Positions 25,876 to 55,305 of a DNA stretch of 61,476 nucleotides are shown piece by piece (position 1 is the first letter of the stretch; each line of letters opens with the position of its first letter). The notes under the pieces are model-generated. The model made no database searches and had not been told where the DNA came from. It saw nothing but the letters and a program-made list of their open reading frames with translations. The position numbers were made by a program, and so were the translations under genes. The stretch is from Mollicutes bacterium. GTDB taxonomy: Bacteria; Bacillota_I; Bacilli_A; Izemoplasmatales; Izemoplasmataceae. Location of the stretch: positions 1 through 61,476 of the forward strand of contig PWYL01000055.1 of assembly GCA_003568315.1 (NCBI GenBank), read 5' to 3'.

Positions 25876-26084
25876 AAAAAACGTCCTTGAAAGGGTTCAA
25901 GGACGATATACACCGCGGTACCACCTTGGTTCGTAATGCGCTCGAAGGCTCTAACGCGGCCAAGCGGGCGGGATTAGCGCCACTCGGGGGCTGAAACCTT
26001 CCTTGCGGGGGACCGGACCGTTTCCAGCCGCGACGGCCCTCTCTGGCGGGCCCTTCAAGGAGGCATGTGCCCCTTCTACGTGTT
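25876..26084 (-). ncRNA. T-box leader, tRNA-Phe specific
   Basis: Transcript attenuator that senses uncharged tRNA-Phe. The conserved AAGGTGGTACCGCGG lies at 25913-25927 (minus strand). The terminator hairpin GTCCTTGA..TCAAGGAC (25883-25904) is followed by T6. In stem I the specifier codon UUC (25993-25995) is followed by A and then GCCCC, which pairs with GGGGC on the 5' side, so the codon sits in the expected internal loop. It agrees with the pheST genes downstream. Confidence 0.9.
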
Positions 26085-26090
26085 AGGCTC

Positions 26091-36024: not shown

Positions 36025-36062
36025 CAAAAGAAATGAGCGCCCCCGGGGCGCTCATTTCTTTT
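36025..36062. terminator. bidirectional terminator between rqcH and thrS
   Basis: Long stem AAATGAGCGCCCC / GGGGCGCTCATTT (36031-36057) with TTTCTTTT on both strands. On the minus strand it contains the thrS stop codon. Confidence 0.85.
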
Positions 36063-37968
36063 GGGCGATCTCTTTGGCGAAAAGTTCCATGAATTCATCA
36101 AAGCCGACGGTGTGTTGCTCCTTCTCGCCGTAGCGGCGGTAGGTGACGGTGTTTTCTTCGACCTCGTTGTCGCCGATGACGAGCTGGAAGGGAATCTTCT
36201 TCTGTTGGGCGTCGCGGATCTTTTTGCCGAGTTTCTCTTCGCGGTCATCCACTTCCGTGCGGTAATCGGCATCAAGGAAGAGGCCTTGGAGTTTGTTGGC
36301 GTGATCCAGGTGCTTCTCCACGCTCACGGGGATGATCGCGGCCTGGGTGGGGGCGAGCCAAGTCGGGAAGGCGCCCTTGAATTGCTCCAAGAGGATGCTC
36401 ATGAGGCGTTCCCACGTGGAGATCAGTCCACGGTGGATAAGGACGGGGCGGTGTCTTTTCCCGTCTTCGCCGATGTAGGTGAGGTCGAAACGTTCCGGCA
36501 GCAAAAAGTCGAGCTGTACGGTGCTCATGGTGATGATGTGGCCGAGGGCGGTCCTGACCTGGATGTCGATTTTGGGGCCGTAGAACGCGGCCTCGCCTTT
36601 CATTTCCGTGTATTCGATCCTCTCTTCGTCGAGGAGTTCCTTCATGACTTTCTCGGCTTCGTCCCAGAGTTCGTCGCTCTCGTGGAACTTGCCCTTGTCC
36701 GCATCGCGGAGCGCGAGCTCCACATATTCGATTGTGAGCCCGAGATCGTTGATCGCCTTCCGGATGAGGCCGTAGGCGGAAAGCACCTCGTGTTTGATCT
36801 GGTCCTTTCGCGCGAAGATGTGGGCGTCGGTCAACGTCATCGCCCGGACCCTCTCGAGACCCGAAAGGGCGCCGCTCTTTTCATAGCGGTACTGCGTGAC
36901 GATCTCGGCATAGCGGAGGGGGAGGTCCCGATAACTTCTCAATTCGCTCTTGTAGACGATGGCGTGATGGGGGCAGGCCATGGGCCGGAGGACATAGCTT
37001 TCGTCTTCGTCCTCGATCAGGGGGAACATGTCGTCTTTGTAATGTTTGAAATGGCCGCTCGTCTCATAGAGTTGCCGTGTGCCGAGGATGGGGGGGGATA
37101 GGTGTTTGTAGCCGTAACGTCTTTCGAGGCGCTGGACGTATTCCTCGAGGACGCGGCGGACGGTGAACCCGTTCGGAAGCCAGATGGGAAGTCCTTGCCC
37201 GGCCTCGTCACTCAACAGGAAAATCTTCAGTTCCTTGCCGAGTTTCCGGTGGTCCCGTTCGCGGCGTTCCTCGCGGAGCGCGAGATACTCGTCGAGCTTT
37301 TCTTCCGTGAACCAGCTCGTGCCATAGATCCGCGTCAGCATCTCCCTTTCGCTGTCGCCGCGCCAATAGGCGCCGGCGACGGAGAGAAGTTTGAAATGCC
37401 TGATGAGGGAGGTGCGTTCGACATGGCCGCCCCGGCAGAGGTCGGTGAATCCGTTCTGGCTGTAGAGGGTGATTTCGTCATCCTCGATCTCTTGGAGGAG
37501 TTCTTGCTTGTAGGGATCGGCGGAAAAGCGGGAGACCGCTTCTTCCTTCGTGACAACCTCTCTCTTTATGGGCAAATCCTCTTTGGCGATTTTTCGCATC
37601 ATTTCCTCGATCCGGGAGAGGTCCTCGTCGCGGATGGCTTCATCCGTCTTGATGTCGTAGTAGAAACCCTCGTCGATGGCGGGACCGACACCGAAACGGG
37701 CGTCGGGATAGAGCCTTTTCACCGCATGGGCCAGAAGATGCGCCGTGGAGTGGTTCAACACCTCGAAAGCCGCATCCGTCCCTTTCACGACAAGCTCGAG
37801 CGAAGCATCCGTCTCGATGGGACGGTCGAGTTCGGTGAGGACGCCGTCGATTTTTGCGGCCACGCTCTTTTTCGCAAGACCCGGAGCGATCGCTTTCGCG
37901 ACCGCTTTCGGAGTCACACCTTTTTCGTATTCTCGTTTCGAATTGTCGGGGAATGTGATGGTGATCAT
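36052..37968 (-). CDS. thrS: threonyl-tRNA synthetase
   Basis: Charges tRNA-Thr; 638 residues. In order: TGS domain (about 1-62), second additional domain for editing (about 65-225), class II core with the zinc Cys in LRPMACPHHAIVYKS, STVQLDFLLPERFDLTYIGEDG and IHRGLISTWERLM, and a C-terminal anticodon-binding domain. The ATG overlaps the stop of the MazG-like gene (ATGA) with AGGAGG upstream. Both genes lie under the Thr T-box. Confidence 0.97.
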   Translation of the reverse strand: MITITFPDNSKREYEKGVTPKAVAKAIAPGLAKKSVAAKIDGVLTELDRPIETDASLELVVKGTDAAFEVLNHSTAHLLAHAVKRLYPDARFGVGPAIDEGFYYDIKTDEAIRDEDLSRIEEMMRKIAKEDLPIKREVVTKEEAVSRFSADPYKQELLQEIEDDEITLYSQNGFTDLCRGGHVERTSLIRHFKLLSVAGAYWRGDSEREMLTRIYGTSWFTEEKLDEYLALREERRERDHRKLGKELKIFLLSDEAGQGLPIWLPNGFTVRRVLEEYVQRLERRYGYKHLSPPILGTRQLYETSGHFKHYKDDMFPLIEDEDESYVLRPMACPHHAIVYKSELRSYRDLPLRYAEIVTQYRYEKSGALSGLERVRAMTLTDAHIFARKDQIKHEVLSAYGLIRKAINDLGLTIEYVELALRDADKGKFHESDELWDEAEKVMKELLDEERIEYTEMKGEAAFYGPKIDIQVRTALGHIITMSTVQLDFLLPERFDLTYIGEDGKRHRPVLIHRGLISTWERLMSILLEQFKGAFPTWLAPTQAAIIPVSVEKHLDHANKLQGLFLDADYRTEVDDREEKLGKKIRDAQQKKIPFQLVIGDNEVEENTVTYRRYGEKEQHTVGFDEFMELFAKEIAQKK

Positions 37969-38279
37969 TTCTTCCGCCTCCTGCCTTCTTCATAGCGTTC
38001 TTCGTTGATCCTGTCCTTCTCGATGATCGCATCCTCCAAATCGATGCCGTAGATGTTGGCGATGTGGGTGACATAGTGGAGGACATCGTAGAGTTCGTAC
38101 TTTATGGCTTTCTTCCTCTCTTCGGTGAGGCCTTTTTGGTGTTCTTTGCGCATCTCGACACTGAGCTCGCCGACCTCCTCGAAGAGTTTCAACACGACTT
38201 CGTGTTTCTTGTCGGGATGGAAGTCGATTTGTTTTATGTGTTCTTGGAGCCCTTTGACGGTGAGATCCTTTTTCAGCAC
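37965..38279 (-). CDS. MazG-like nucleotide pyrophosphohydrolase
   Basis: A 104-residue all-alpha protein of the MazG-like/dUTPase-2 type, predicted to hydrolyse NTPs or a modified nucleotide to NMP and pyrophosphate. The metal-binding helices are clear: E-E-V-G-E-L (about 34-39) and the later E-L-Y-D (about 62-65), giving the ExxE..ExxD pattern. The start is GTG at 38279 after AAAGGAGG. It lies between the Thr T-box and thrS, overlapping thrS by 4 nt, so it should be induced by threonine-tRNA starvation. The substrate cannot be told from sequence. Confidence 0.82.
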   Translation of the reverse strand: MLKKDLTVKGLQEHIKQIDFHPDKKHEVVLKLFEEVGELSVEMRKEHQKGLTEERKKAIKYELYDVLHYVTHIANIYGIDLEDAIIEKDRINEERYEEGRRRKK

Positions 38280-38296
38280 GGCTTAGCCTCCTTTAT

Positions 38297-38492
38297 AAAA
38301 AAGCGTCCCTTGGGATTAAGGACGACTTTTCACCGCGGTACCACCTTAGTTCGCACGCACTCGAGCCCTTAACGCGGGAAACGGGAATCCCTTTCGGGTC
38401 CGACTCCGAGGGAGTGGCGCCTTCCCCTTGGCGGCTTTCACCGTCCCGCCTCGCTTTCGGACGGGAAGGGCCCTGGCCTCTTCACGGTCTTA
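38297..38492 (-). ncRNA. T-box leader, tRNA-Thr (for MazG-like gene and thrS)
   Basis: The conserved AAGGTGGTACCGCGG lies at 38333-38347 (minus strand), followed by a terminator hairpin (38304-38324) and T6. In stem I, a helix UUCCC/GGGAA leads into an internal loop; ACU (38413-38415) lies 6 nt before the GAGUCG segment, as UAC does in the Tyr leader, and the following CCUC can pair with GAGG. I therefore read the specifier as ACU (Thr). It is followed by C rather than the usual purine. An overlapping GCC is the alternative. Confidence 0.85.
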
Positions 38493-38498
38493 ATAGGG

Positions 38499-38527
38499 AT
38501 TATAGACGATTAAGGGCGGATTGTCAA
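38499..38527 (-). promoter_or_regulatory. consensus promoter of the T-box-mazG-thrS operon
   Basis: Perfect TTGACA (38522-38527), 17-nt spacer, TATAAT (38499-38504) on the minus strand. The TGA of TTGACA is the stop codon of dnaI. Confidence 0.85.
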
Positions 38528-39423
38528 TCTTCCTCGATGGCCTCGGTGAGTTTGACGACATCCGCGAGATTCATGATGCGCTCGATGATCCTATGCGCCT
38601 TGATGATCTCGGTGTCTTTCTCCTGCATGGTGAGATATTCCTTGAGTCCTTGCGGGGGAACGTTCGAGGTGAAGAAGGTCGGTCGTTCGTCGAGAAGACG
38701 GTGCTGCAGGACAGGGCCGAGAATCTCGTCACGGATCCAAGCGGAGAAGGACTCGCCGCCGATATCGTCCAACATGAGGATCTCGACGGTTTTCAACCGT
38801 TCGATCCGCATTTCCAGATCGCCGGTTTTGATGGAACTCTTCAGTTCGCGGACGACATCGGGATAATAGGCCAACACGACCTCATGGCCCAGTTCGCCGA
38901 ACCGGTTGCCGCAGGCGGCGAGGGCGTAGGTCTTGCCGACGTGATAGCGGCCGTGGAGATAAAGTCCCTTGATCCTCTCTCCTTTGTGGTATTGGTTCGT
39001 GAGGGCGATGATCTTGGAATAGAGGTTCCGGCGTTCGGCGCTCCGTTGATAGAAATCGTCCAGCCGCGCCCTTCTGACCATGGCCGGCATATAGAGGGCG
39101 TCCACCCGGGAAAACGCGGCACGCTCTTCGCTCTCGGCGCGAAGATATGTGCAAGGGTGGTACTCGAGGAAAATCCGCCCCTTGCGATAAGAAAGCACCG
39201 GCTGCATGCCGGTCGTTTCCTGCTTGCAGTAGGAAAGCCCCCGGCAGCCTTCGCAATGGACATATTCTTCCCGGTAGGTGAGAAGCTCGTTCAAAGCGTC
39301 CTCGATTGCTTCCGCCGCGACGTCATTTTCGAGGAAGAACTCCTTCAGCCGGGCATCATCGGCGAGTTCTTCAATCGTCTTCTCGACGATGCCGGGATTC
39401 TTTTTGAACTTGTAAGGGCGCAT
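38524..39423 (-). CDS. dnaI: primosomal helicase loader DnaI
   Basis: AAA+ ATPase that loads the replicative helicase; 299 residues. The N-terminal zinc-binding region is C-x2-C..C..C (CEGCRGLSYC and a later HPCTY). The C-terminal AAA+ domain has a P-loop GRYHVGKTYALAA and Walker B ILMLDDIGGES. The ATG at 39423 lies 8 nt after AAGGAG; an ATG at 39429 overlaps the dnaB stop but is only 2 nt from the SD. It is the last gene of the polA-CDF-nitroreductase-mutM-coaE-dnaB-dnaI run. Confidence 0.94.
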   Translation of the reverse strand: MRPYKFKKNPGIVEKTIEELADDARLKEFFLENDVAAEAIEDALNELLTYREEYVHCEGCRGLSYCKQETTGMQPVLSYRKGRIFLEYHPCTYLRAESEERAAFSRVDALYMPAMVRRARLDDFYQRSAERRNLYSKIIALTNQYHKGERIKGLYLHGRYHVGKTYALAACGNRFGELGHEVVLAYYPDVVRELKSSIKTGDLEMRIERLKTVEILMLDDIGGESFSAWIRDEILGPVLQHRLLDERPTFFTSNVPPQGLKEYLTMQEKDTEIIKAHRIIERIMNLADVVKLTEAIEED

Positions 39424-39425
39424 GA

Positions 39426-40601
39426 TCATTTCTCCTTGTCATCGAGGTAGTCGTCCAGCCAGTCGACCCCGGCATCACGGACCCGTCCGCCTTTCCTTTG
39501 GGAACGGGATTTCTCTTTCCGGTTGCGCACCTTCTTTTCGATGTGGGCCACGGCGTCTTCGGCGGAAGCGATGTCGGTACGTTTCCACTCGCCGACGATC
39601 TTCTCGAAATAGTTGTAGGTCGGGAACCGCTGGTCGAGTTCTTTCAACACGTAGGCGATGAGCACATTGATGACCTCGAGAGAGAGGTCGGTCTCCGTCA
39701 CGAGGCGTTCGATCACCCGGGCGTCGGCCGCGGGCGCCCGCATGCCGGTCGCTTCCTCGAGAAGCGTTTTCGGGTGGACCGACTTGAAGTATTCAAGGTT
39801 GTAAGTGTCGCTTTTTTTCCGGATGCGTACGCGTTTTTCGCCCGCATAGCTTTTCTGGGCTAAGCGCGAAAGTTCGGCGAAATCGATCGTGCCGTCCTCA
39901 AGGAGGCTCTGACGGAGGAGTTTCCGGAGCGTCTCCTCGTTCAGGTTATAGATATAGGCGATCTCTTTCAGTTTCTCCTTGCAGCGTTTGGTCTTCGTCT
40001 TGTCCGACACGAGGGAAGGAGGCAGGCTTTCGAGGACGAGGTCGATGTCGGTCGCATGAAGGATCTCGGTCTTTTTCGCTTCGGCCGCCATGAAACTCGC
40101 GCGACTCTTCACGGGAGCGGCGACCGGCGGAAAGACCTCGTCAAAACGGACCGAACAGTTCCGGTAGTCCCCCTTCTTCGGACGGACGATCCGGAAATGC
40201 GCGATGAGGTCGTTGAAACGCTCCTCGCCGATCCTTTGTTTCAGATACGCCCCGAAAGGGGCGTCTTTGATGAAACTTTCCGCCGAGAGCGGAGGGAAGA
40301 GTTCGATAAGATAATCTTCCTCTCCTTTGTAGGTCTCGATGAGCGCGCTCGCCTCCAACGTCTGCCGAGCGCTGAAAAAAGCCCCGGGATTCATATCGAG
40401 GAGGTCATAGAGAAAGGAATGGGGGTAGGTGGGAGACTGCAGCTTGGAGCGGTCGATGAGGGAATGAAGCGTCATGTATAGCGAAAAAGCGTCCCGGCCG
40501 ACCACGGGCAGATAGAGGAGATTCAATGTGTGCACGTGCGCGGGAGAAAGGTTCGCGCGGGAGACGATGCGGAGTTTGTCGTCGGCGGCGACGCTTTTCA
40601 T
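39426..40601 (-). CDS. dnaB: replication initiation/membrane attachment protein DnaB (Bacillus type)
   Basis: Helicase co-loader that acts with DnaD and DnaI; 391 residues. It is not the DnaB helicase. An N-terminal winged-helix region and two DDBH2-like modules are expected. The FKSVHPKTLLEEATGMRAPAA segment and the C-terminal YVLKELDQRFPTYNYFEKI helix resemble the family, and the basic C-terminal tail is typical. I chose the ATG at 40601 because of GGGGTG upstream; the ATG at 40616 has no SD. Its position before dnaI is conserved in Bacilli. Confidence 0.88.
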   Translation of the reverse strand: MKSVAADDKLRIVSRANLSPAHVHTLNLLYLPVVGRDAFSLYMTLHSLIDRSKLQSPTYPHSFLYDLLDMNPGAFFSARQTLEASALIETYKGEEDYLIELFPPLSAESFIKDAPFGAYLKQRIGEERFNDLIAHFRIVRPKKGDYRNCSVRFDEVFPPVAAPVKSRASFMAAEAKKTEILHATDIDLVLESLPPSLVSDKTKTKRCKEKLKEIAYIYNLNEETLRKLLRQSLLEDGTIDFAELSRLAQKSYAGEKRVRIRKKSDTYNLEYFKSVHPKTLLEEATGMRAPAADARVIERLVTETDLSLEVINVLIAYVLKELDQRFPTYNYFEKIVGEWKRTDIASAEDAVAHIEKKVRNRKEKSRSQRKGGRVRDAGVDWLDDYLDDKEK

Positions 40602-40617
40602 GGCTTCACACCCCATC

Positions 40618-55091: not shown

Positions 55092-55298
55092 AAAAAGGTG
55101 GCCCTTGCAAAGGACGGATGTTATCCGCGGTACCACCTTTGTTCTAGTTCTCACTAACACTCGAAGGGGATAACGGTCCCGCCGTCCATTGTTTGGCAAT
55201 GGCGACTCCCAAGTGTATTCCGCGGCTTCCTTCCCCGGTTCGCACCGGCCACCGGGTCTCTTGGGAAGGGGTGCCGCTACTTCTCTTGTTCGCGGTCT
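55092..55298 (-). ncRNA. T-box leader, tRNA-Tyr specific
   Basis: The conserved AAGGTGGTACCGCGG lies at 55125-55139 (minus strand). The specifier UAC (55215-55217) is in the canonical context GGAAUACAC, with CAAG/CUUG below and GCGGC/GCCGC above the loop. The terminator ends in T5 at 55092-55096; its 3' arm CCACC is complementary to the T-box GGTGG, so termination and antitermination are directly exclusive. A GATAAT -10 candidate (55305-55310) overlaps the stop codon of the upstream regulator gene. Confidence 0.9.
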
Positions 55299-55305
55299 TT
55301 TCTGA

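Follow-up and report, generated by a model that had tools for sequence, protein, structure and literature searches.

A predicted MazG-like pyrophosphohydrolase gene lies between a threonine T-box and thrS in a family of Mollicutes

Control of thrS by a T-box is standard in Firmicutes and was recorded for at least 29 of 34 of them in one comparative survey (PMC2494555). In another survey, aminoacyl-tRNA synthetase genes rank first among the targets of T-boxes, followed by amino-acid biosynthesis and transporter genes (PMC3766115). According to a review, iMazG from a Vibrio integron is a dNTP-pyrophosphohydrolase with measured activity (PMC3856429). The locus described here brings parts of both kinds together. 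It lies in a stretch of 61,476 nucleotides, hereafter the window, which is contig 49 of a Mollicutes genome (G000) of 83 contigs and 1.41 Mb. In the window, a gene for a MazG-like protein, mazG, stands between a threonine T-box and thrS (Table 1). We put at roughly 0.75 the probability that mazG and thrS form a two-gene operon with one promoter and one transcriptional T-box, with (d)NTPs or damaged (d)NTPs as the most likely substrates of the enzyme, and that mazG was probably inserted before thrS.

Table 1. Features of the mazG-thrS locus in the window
Feature	Position	Strand	Remarks
Promoter of sigma-70 type, TTGACA-17-TATAAT	38499..38527	(-)	12/12 consensus match
T-box leader RNA	38315..38494	(-)	RF00230, 67.5 bits, E 1.1e-14
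Specifier codon ACU (Thr)	38413..38415	(-)	tRNA-Thr(GGU) present in genome
T-box / antiterminator core AAGGTGGTACCGCG	38334..38347	(-)	UGGU 38343-38340 complementary to tRNA-Thr ACCA
Intrinsic terminator hairpin and T-run	38297..38324	(-)	CGUCCUU common to terminator and antiterminator
Ribosome-binding site of mazG, AAAGGAGG	38287..38294	(-)	
mazG, predicted MazG-like (iMazG-type) NTP pyrophosphohydrolase gene, 104 aa, GTG start 38279	37965..38279	(-)	PF03819
thrS, threonyl-tRNA synthetase, 638 aa, ATG at 37968	36052..37968	(-)	TIGR00418, 693.9 bits
dnaI (helicase loader), upstream neighbour outside T-box control	38524..39429	(-)	PRK08939, 247.7 bits, cut-off 228

On the minus strand, the order in the window is dnaB-like gene, dnaI, promoter, T-box, mazG and thrS, where the gene at 39426-40616 (-) is presumably dnaB-like, as named from gene order. 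The -35 element of the promoter overlaps the stop codon of dnaI, and the mazG stop and the thrS ATG overlap as ATGA. A promoter scan over 5 kb returned one other site besides the mazG leader promoter, with a score of 9/12, and no promoter-like site within the window's mazG; on this ground, a thrS promoter of its own inside mazG was set aside for the window. The sequence-only reading of this DNA had assigned the gene, leader and promoter to 37965-38527 and had described a consensus promoter, a T-box with an intact antiterminator, a 104-residue MazG-like protein and a mazG stop overlapping the thrS start. The span is correct and each of these elements was recovered: the promoter matches at 12 of 12 positions, the core, terminator and T-run of the T-box were located and the leader matches RF00230 below its gathering score, the protein matches PF03819 and carries the expected motifs (see below), and the overlap is ATGA. 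In addition, the sequence gives no sign of a transcription boundary between the two genes, which overlap or nearly touch; within mazG of the window, nothing resembling a promoter was detected.

The RF00230 score of the window T-box (67.5 bits in a 401-base search) is below the gathering score of 93, and hence the element is absent from a default scan. This is not unusual here, since five of 11 T-boxes detected in this genome also score below 93. All 19 mazG leaders that were scanned with RF00230 match the model, four above 93 and 15 below it. Further features were compared in a set of 31 mazG leaders, comprising 30 genomes of the window's family and G103, a genome of another order (G022 and G006 are outside this set). 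A promoter match of 10-12 of 12 was present in 31/31 leaders, with 100 nt examined in each, and the best match in shuffled sequences averages 8.1/12. The antiterminator core was found in all 31 printed leaders, and by eye a hairpin and a T-rich run lie behind the core in every one of them, the T-run of the L087 leader being TTTTCTTT. In L087 (from G018), another core resembling a T-box, GGTGGTACCCAG, lies some 280 nt upstream of the main antiterminator, possibly a tandem leader, a decayed leader or a chance occurrence. After omission of L070 (a near-copy) and of L087 and L095 (wrong leader end points), an alignment of 28 leaders yielded 40 predicted pairs, 20 of them with compensatory changes. 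The consensus fold of these 28 leaders contains Stem I-like pairs and the terminator, and the antiterminator helix is absent from it. The fold of the window leader as a single sequence is not better than those of shuffles (z -0.61, 52/200 as good), and its minimum-energy form differs from the Rfam fold; single-sequence folding was set aside as uninformative.

The specifier is ACU in the window and either ACU or ACC in all 28 aligned mazG leaders. The tRNA-Thr genes found have the anticodons UGU, CGU and GGU and 3' ends ACCA, and the UGGN bulge of the window leader, UGGU, is complementary to this end. The terminator and the antiterminator would exclude each other through a common segment, CGUCCUU, an exclusion that the folds do not display. 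The spacing codon-N6-GAG, applied in a rough search that allowed several candidates for each leader, yields the codon matching the downstream synthetase at 6/10 of the other T-boxes of the genome, and it fails at leuS, hisS, asnS and pheS. One letter of the antiterminator was considered as a marker of mazG (ACCGCG with mazG, mostly ACCACG without) and rejected on account of five exceptions: G011 and G080 have mazG and ACCACG, and G079, G032 and G030 have ACCGCG and no mazG. This letter pattern likely reflects kinship.

Ten of the genome's 11 detected T-boxes lie directly before an aminoacyl-tRNA synthetase gene (valS, tyrS, leuS, serS, alaS, ileS, hisS, asnS, pheS and trpS), and mazG is the sole other first gene. 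Two of these T-boxes are in the window as well, at 55107-55302 (-) before tyrS and at 25896-26087 (-) before pheS, both directly.

MazG and other all-alpha NTP pyrophosphohydrolases are defined by metal-binding residues in EExxE and ExxD motifs. The window MazG carries EEVGE (34-38) and ELYD (62-65), and an alignment of 42 MazG rows, 11 of which come from other families, shows no variation at E34, E35, G37, E38, E62, D65 and K88. The protein scores above the cut-off of PF03819 (29.1 bits, cut-off 22) and below those of PF12643 'MazG-like' (19.7 bits, cut-off 27), the dimeric dUTPase PF08761 (18.8 bits, cut-off 22.9) and the two-domain MazG models NF007113 (27.2, cut-off 208) and TIGR00444 (20.2, cut-off 148.3). 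Its predicted fold (pLDDT 92.4) has iMazG 2q5z as best PDB match (Foldseek E 1.4e-5, 40% identity). The nearest solved sequence is likewise the Vibrio iMazG (profile E 2.3e-22). The next closest solved proteins are mouse and human dCTP pyrophosphatase and an archaeal MazG. The window MazG is of the iMazG subtype, its closest solved relative in both sequence and predicted fold. Among six genomes of the window's genus (15 pairs), mazG dN is 0.03-0.20 and dS ranges from 0.38 to saturation, and mazG dN is smaller than thrS dN in 14/15 pairs, indicating that mazG is kept under purifying selection. Two more matches to the MazG domain PF03819 are present in the window's genome, at G000:C75:14447-14656 and G000:C21:1260-1469.

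To follow the gene in the order, a profile of 16 mazG rows from members of the window's family was searched against 90 genomes at E 1e-12. The profile matched 32 of the 49 genomes of the family, one match each, and none of the 41 genomes from the other two families of the order. Of the 32 matching genomes, 31 have thrS directly behind mazG, so the adjacency is not confined to the window's genome; in the last, G083, the contig ends just past mazG. Chance adjacency of the two genes is ruled out by this occurrence in 32/49 family genomes, and the unit of threonine T-box, mazG and thrS, which had been read from one genome, proves to be conserved well beyond it, including G103. The promoter, antiterminator and terminator precede mazG in 30 of 31 checkable family genomes and in G103. 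The exception is G022, where mazG-thrS has no T-box in the 126 nt between mazG and the start of the contig, the T-box of other leaders being about 60-85 nt away; the contig of G006 begins inside mazG. The junction between mazG and thrS was measured in 32 of 33 loci (32 of the family and that of G103). The genes overlap in 28 of these, by 8 nt in 15, by 4 nt in 12 and by 1 nt in one, so that 27 overlap by 4 or 8 nt, and the non-overlapping junctions are +1 (G069), +2 (two loci) and +12 (one locus). A dnaI match is found upstream of mazG in 28/33 loci, in three of them 0.9-1.0 kb off.

In wider samples, 33/395 genomes of the class and 19/392 genomes of the phylum match the mazG profile at E 1e-10, family members included. 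Twenty matching genomes are outside the family, and the context of mazG was examined in 18 of them, up to 1.5 kb on each side (G330 and G356 gave no locus). G103 is the only one of the 18 with T-box-mazG-thrS. The sequence-only reading had proposed to look for MazG-like genes directly upstream of thrS across Bacillota; the order with the T-box is present in most genomes of the family, and outside it G103 is the single case among the 18. One of the four genomes examined in the order of G103 matched mazG, and another of the four, G091, has a T-box directly before thrS. In G103 (L096 / L114), a gene judged methyltransferase-like by reading its sequence stands between dnaI and the T-box. In G440, thrS is about 1.2 kb downstream of the MazG gene, behind a trpS-like gene, and the MazG neighbours in G440 and G441 resemble a histone-like gene and der, as judged by reading the sequences. 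A scan for close relatives reaching past the window's phylum gave 14 loci, all from Mollicutes or Candidatus Izimaplasma. Sixteen Tenericutes MAGs with a relationship to the NB1-n group have been described in a study of soda-lake sediment (PMC6146748).

The 17 family genomes that lack mazG bear on the history of the unit. In 14 of them (G016, G009, G024, G071-G075, G078, G079, G087, G088, G089 and G013), the T-box is directly before thrS; the locus of G085 is cut off where its contig ends, and at the search threshold no thrS was recovered from G076 or G014. A T-box core also precedes thrS in all four f3 loci seen and in 0/3 f2 loci seen. The presence of T-box-thrS without mazG in the f3 loci and in 14 of the 17 mazG-less genomes suggests that mazG was inserted between an older T-box and thrS, and we infer that this probably took place in the ancestor of most of the family. 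The gene looks to have been lost or transferred several times later. A quickly built tree of 54 ThrRS rows requires six changes of the mazG label, or five without the cut-off G085, against 17.6 in shuffles; these counts do not separate gain from loss, nor one gain from transfers. On this tree, genus g5, which has no mazG, branches outside the group of mazG rows, and changes occur in g7, g9, g12 and f5. Two f5 ThrRS rows fall among rows of the window's family (SH-aLRT 97), a placement suggesting that the T-box-mazG-thrS block may have been transferred. The ThrRS of G103 is placed among family rows. The MazG tree puts 32 thrS-type rows together with a weak support of 47 and a long-branch warning. 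The distances of MazG and ThrRS are moderately correlated (r 0.38 in 30 genomes, 0/2000 permutations as high; 0.28 without G103). Two genomes of genus g9, G087 and G013 (L137, L138), have a divergent ThrRS that is 47-48% identical to that of the window, lies behind a T-box and groups with f3 rows, which might represent a possible replacement of thrS. In addition, G013 has an in-frame N-terminal thrS extension between the T-box and thrS.

The anatomy, conservation, selection and leader covariation described above were all read from the sequence, and from them we infer how the unit may respond to tRNA, couple its translation and act on a substrate. Uncharged tRNA-Thr would pair with the ACU specifier through its anticodon and with UGGU through its free ACCA end. 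The antiterminator would then form, and RNA polymerase would enter the mazG-thrS message, which encodes a small all-alpha pyrophosphohydrolase and ThrRS. Translation of the two genes is probably coupled via the ATGA overlap. With charged tRNA-Thr, transcription would end at the terminator immediately ahead of mazG, and neither gene would be read. Like iMazG, the MazG protein would most likely act on (d)NTPs or their damaged forms, releasing pyrophosphate and leaving the monophosphate. Most likely, either threonine shortage raises MazG to trim or clean the nucleotide pools when growth stalls, or mazG is simply well placed in the leader. The substrate is not indicated by any missing function, because other PF03819 genes are common and dUTPase is widespread. 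Neither shows an inverse pattern with mazG in the family genomes: the dUTPase domain PF00692 is present in 44/49 and missing in 4/32 with mazG and 1/17 without it.

How much of this arrangement serves a response to threonine can be weighed against three other accounts. For the account that mazG landed between the T-box and thrS by chance and is kept for its enzyme activity, with a threonine response that is physiologically meaningless, we would give even odds. It agrees with the lack of mazG in several lineages with intact thrS control, with the presence of other MazG-domain genes in the genome, and with the position of mazG beside dnaI, a replication gene, where the gene of a dNTP enzyme might initially have been picked up. 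However, a pure passenger might be expected to relocate now and then, and none of the 32 profile matches (49 family genomes, E 1e-12) is away from thrS, one contig ending after mazG. The leader, terminator and tight junction have also been kept over deep divergence. The family copies were seen solely next to thrS and show as much constraint as thrS itself, which argues for a kept function. This exclusive adjacency to thrS, along with the overlapping genes and the correlated MazG and ThrRS distances, might also be taken to mean that MazG works with ThrRS, for instance as a binding partner or by clearing away a nucleotide by-product of the ThrRS reaction. However, mazG is missing in 17/49 family genomes, which argues against thrS needing MazG, and in the order's other families, and all but a few of these genomes show thrS; a partnership of this kind seems quite unlikely to us.

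The sequence-only reading had pointed out that MazG-type enzymes can influence (p)ppGpp or aberrant NTP pools and that the pairing may link the starvation response to tRNA charging. Taken as an account of the stringent response, MazG would lower (p)ppGpp and so tune the starvation response to tRNA-Thr charging. The window's genome has one RelA/SpoT-domain match, and nothing ties it to the window MazG. E. coli MazG has been linked to a reduction of (p)ppGpp (Gross et al. 2006, cited in PMC6850273). However, the assays published in PMC6850273 showed neither binding nor hydrolysis of (p)ppGpp by MazG from cyanobacteria and cyanophages, and the window MazG is not of the E. coli type, scoring far under the cut-offs of the two-domain models. 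These assays on other MazG proteins and the iMazG-like type of the protein both disfavour a (p)ppGpp role, and we regard it as the least probable of the accounts. The likeliest interpretation is that a dNTP or damaged-NTP hydrolase would be expressed together with ThrRS when the charging of tRNA-Thr falls. A further step, that the sensing of tRNA charging directly controls how much of a nucleotide-pool enzyme is made, so that a shortage of charged tRNA-Thr brings about dNTP (or damaged NTP) hydrolysis along with more ThrRS, is doubtful. If true, it would connect translation to DNA precursors by an alarm that bypasses (p)ppGpp in these mycoplasma relatives. The mazG-thrS locus lends itself to testing whether the state of aminoacylation acts on nucleotide pools, and it gives a starting point for finding out what small iMazG-type enzymes do.

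The sequence-only reading knew of no standard pairing of this kind, and in the literature searched, where subscription papers are mostly outside coverage, we likewise found no description of MazG paired with a T-box or thrS. Streptococcus pneumoniae spr1471 is listed as a Thr T-box gene, 'Thr-tRNA ligase related hypothetical' (PMC2494555), and is compared here by this table entry alone, with no relation claimed. Like iMazG of Vibrio rotiferianus DAT722 (PDB 2q5z, 2q73), the window MazG is a single domain of about 100 aa; in contrast, iMazG sits in an integron cassette array, as the review describes it (PMC3856429), whereas the window mazG is tied to thrS. The two-domain MazG of E. coli and YabN have the superfamily domain in common with the window MazG, but their models comprise 248-486 positions against its 104 aa, and its scores are far below the family cut-offs. 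The leader itself resembles the T-box thrS units of Firmicutes (RF00230; B. subtilis thrS and thrZ; references in PMC2494555), with a Thr specifier, a UGGN bulge, an antiterminator/terminator switch and thrS downstream. The window unit differs from them in its MazG-like first gene, the synthetase being first in the 10 other T-box units of the genome. The parts are ordinary, and as far as the compared genomes indicate, it is the conserved pairing of mazG with a Thr T-box and thrS that is unusual; an operon in which a Thr T-box is followed first by a conserved nucleotide hydrolase gene would extend the list of T-box targets.
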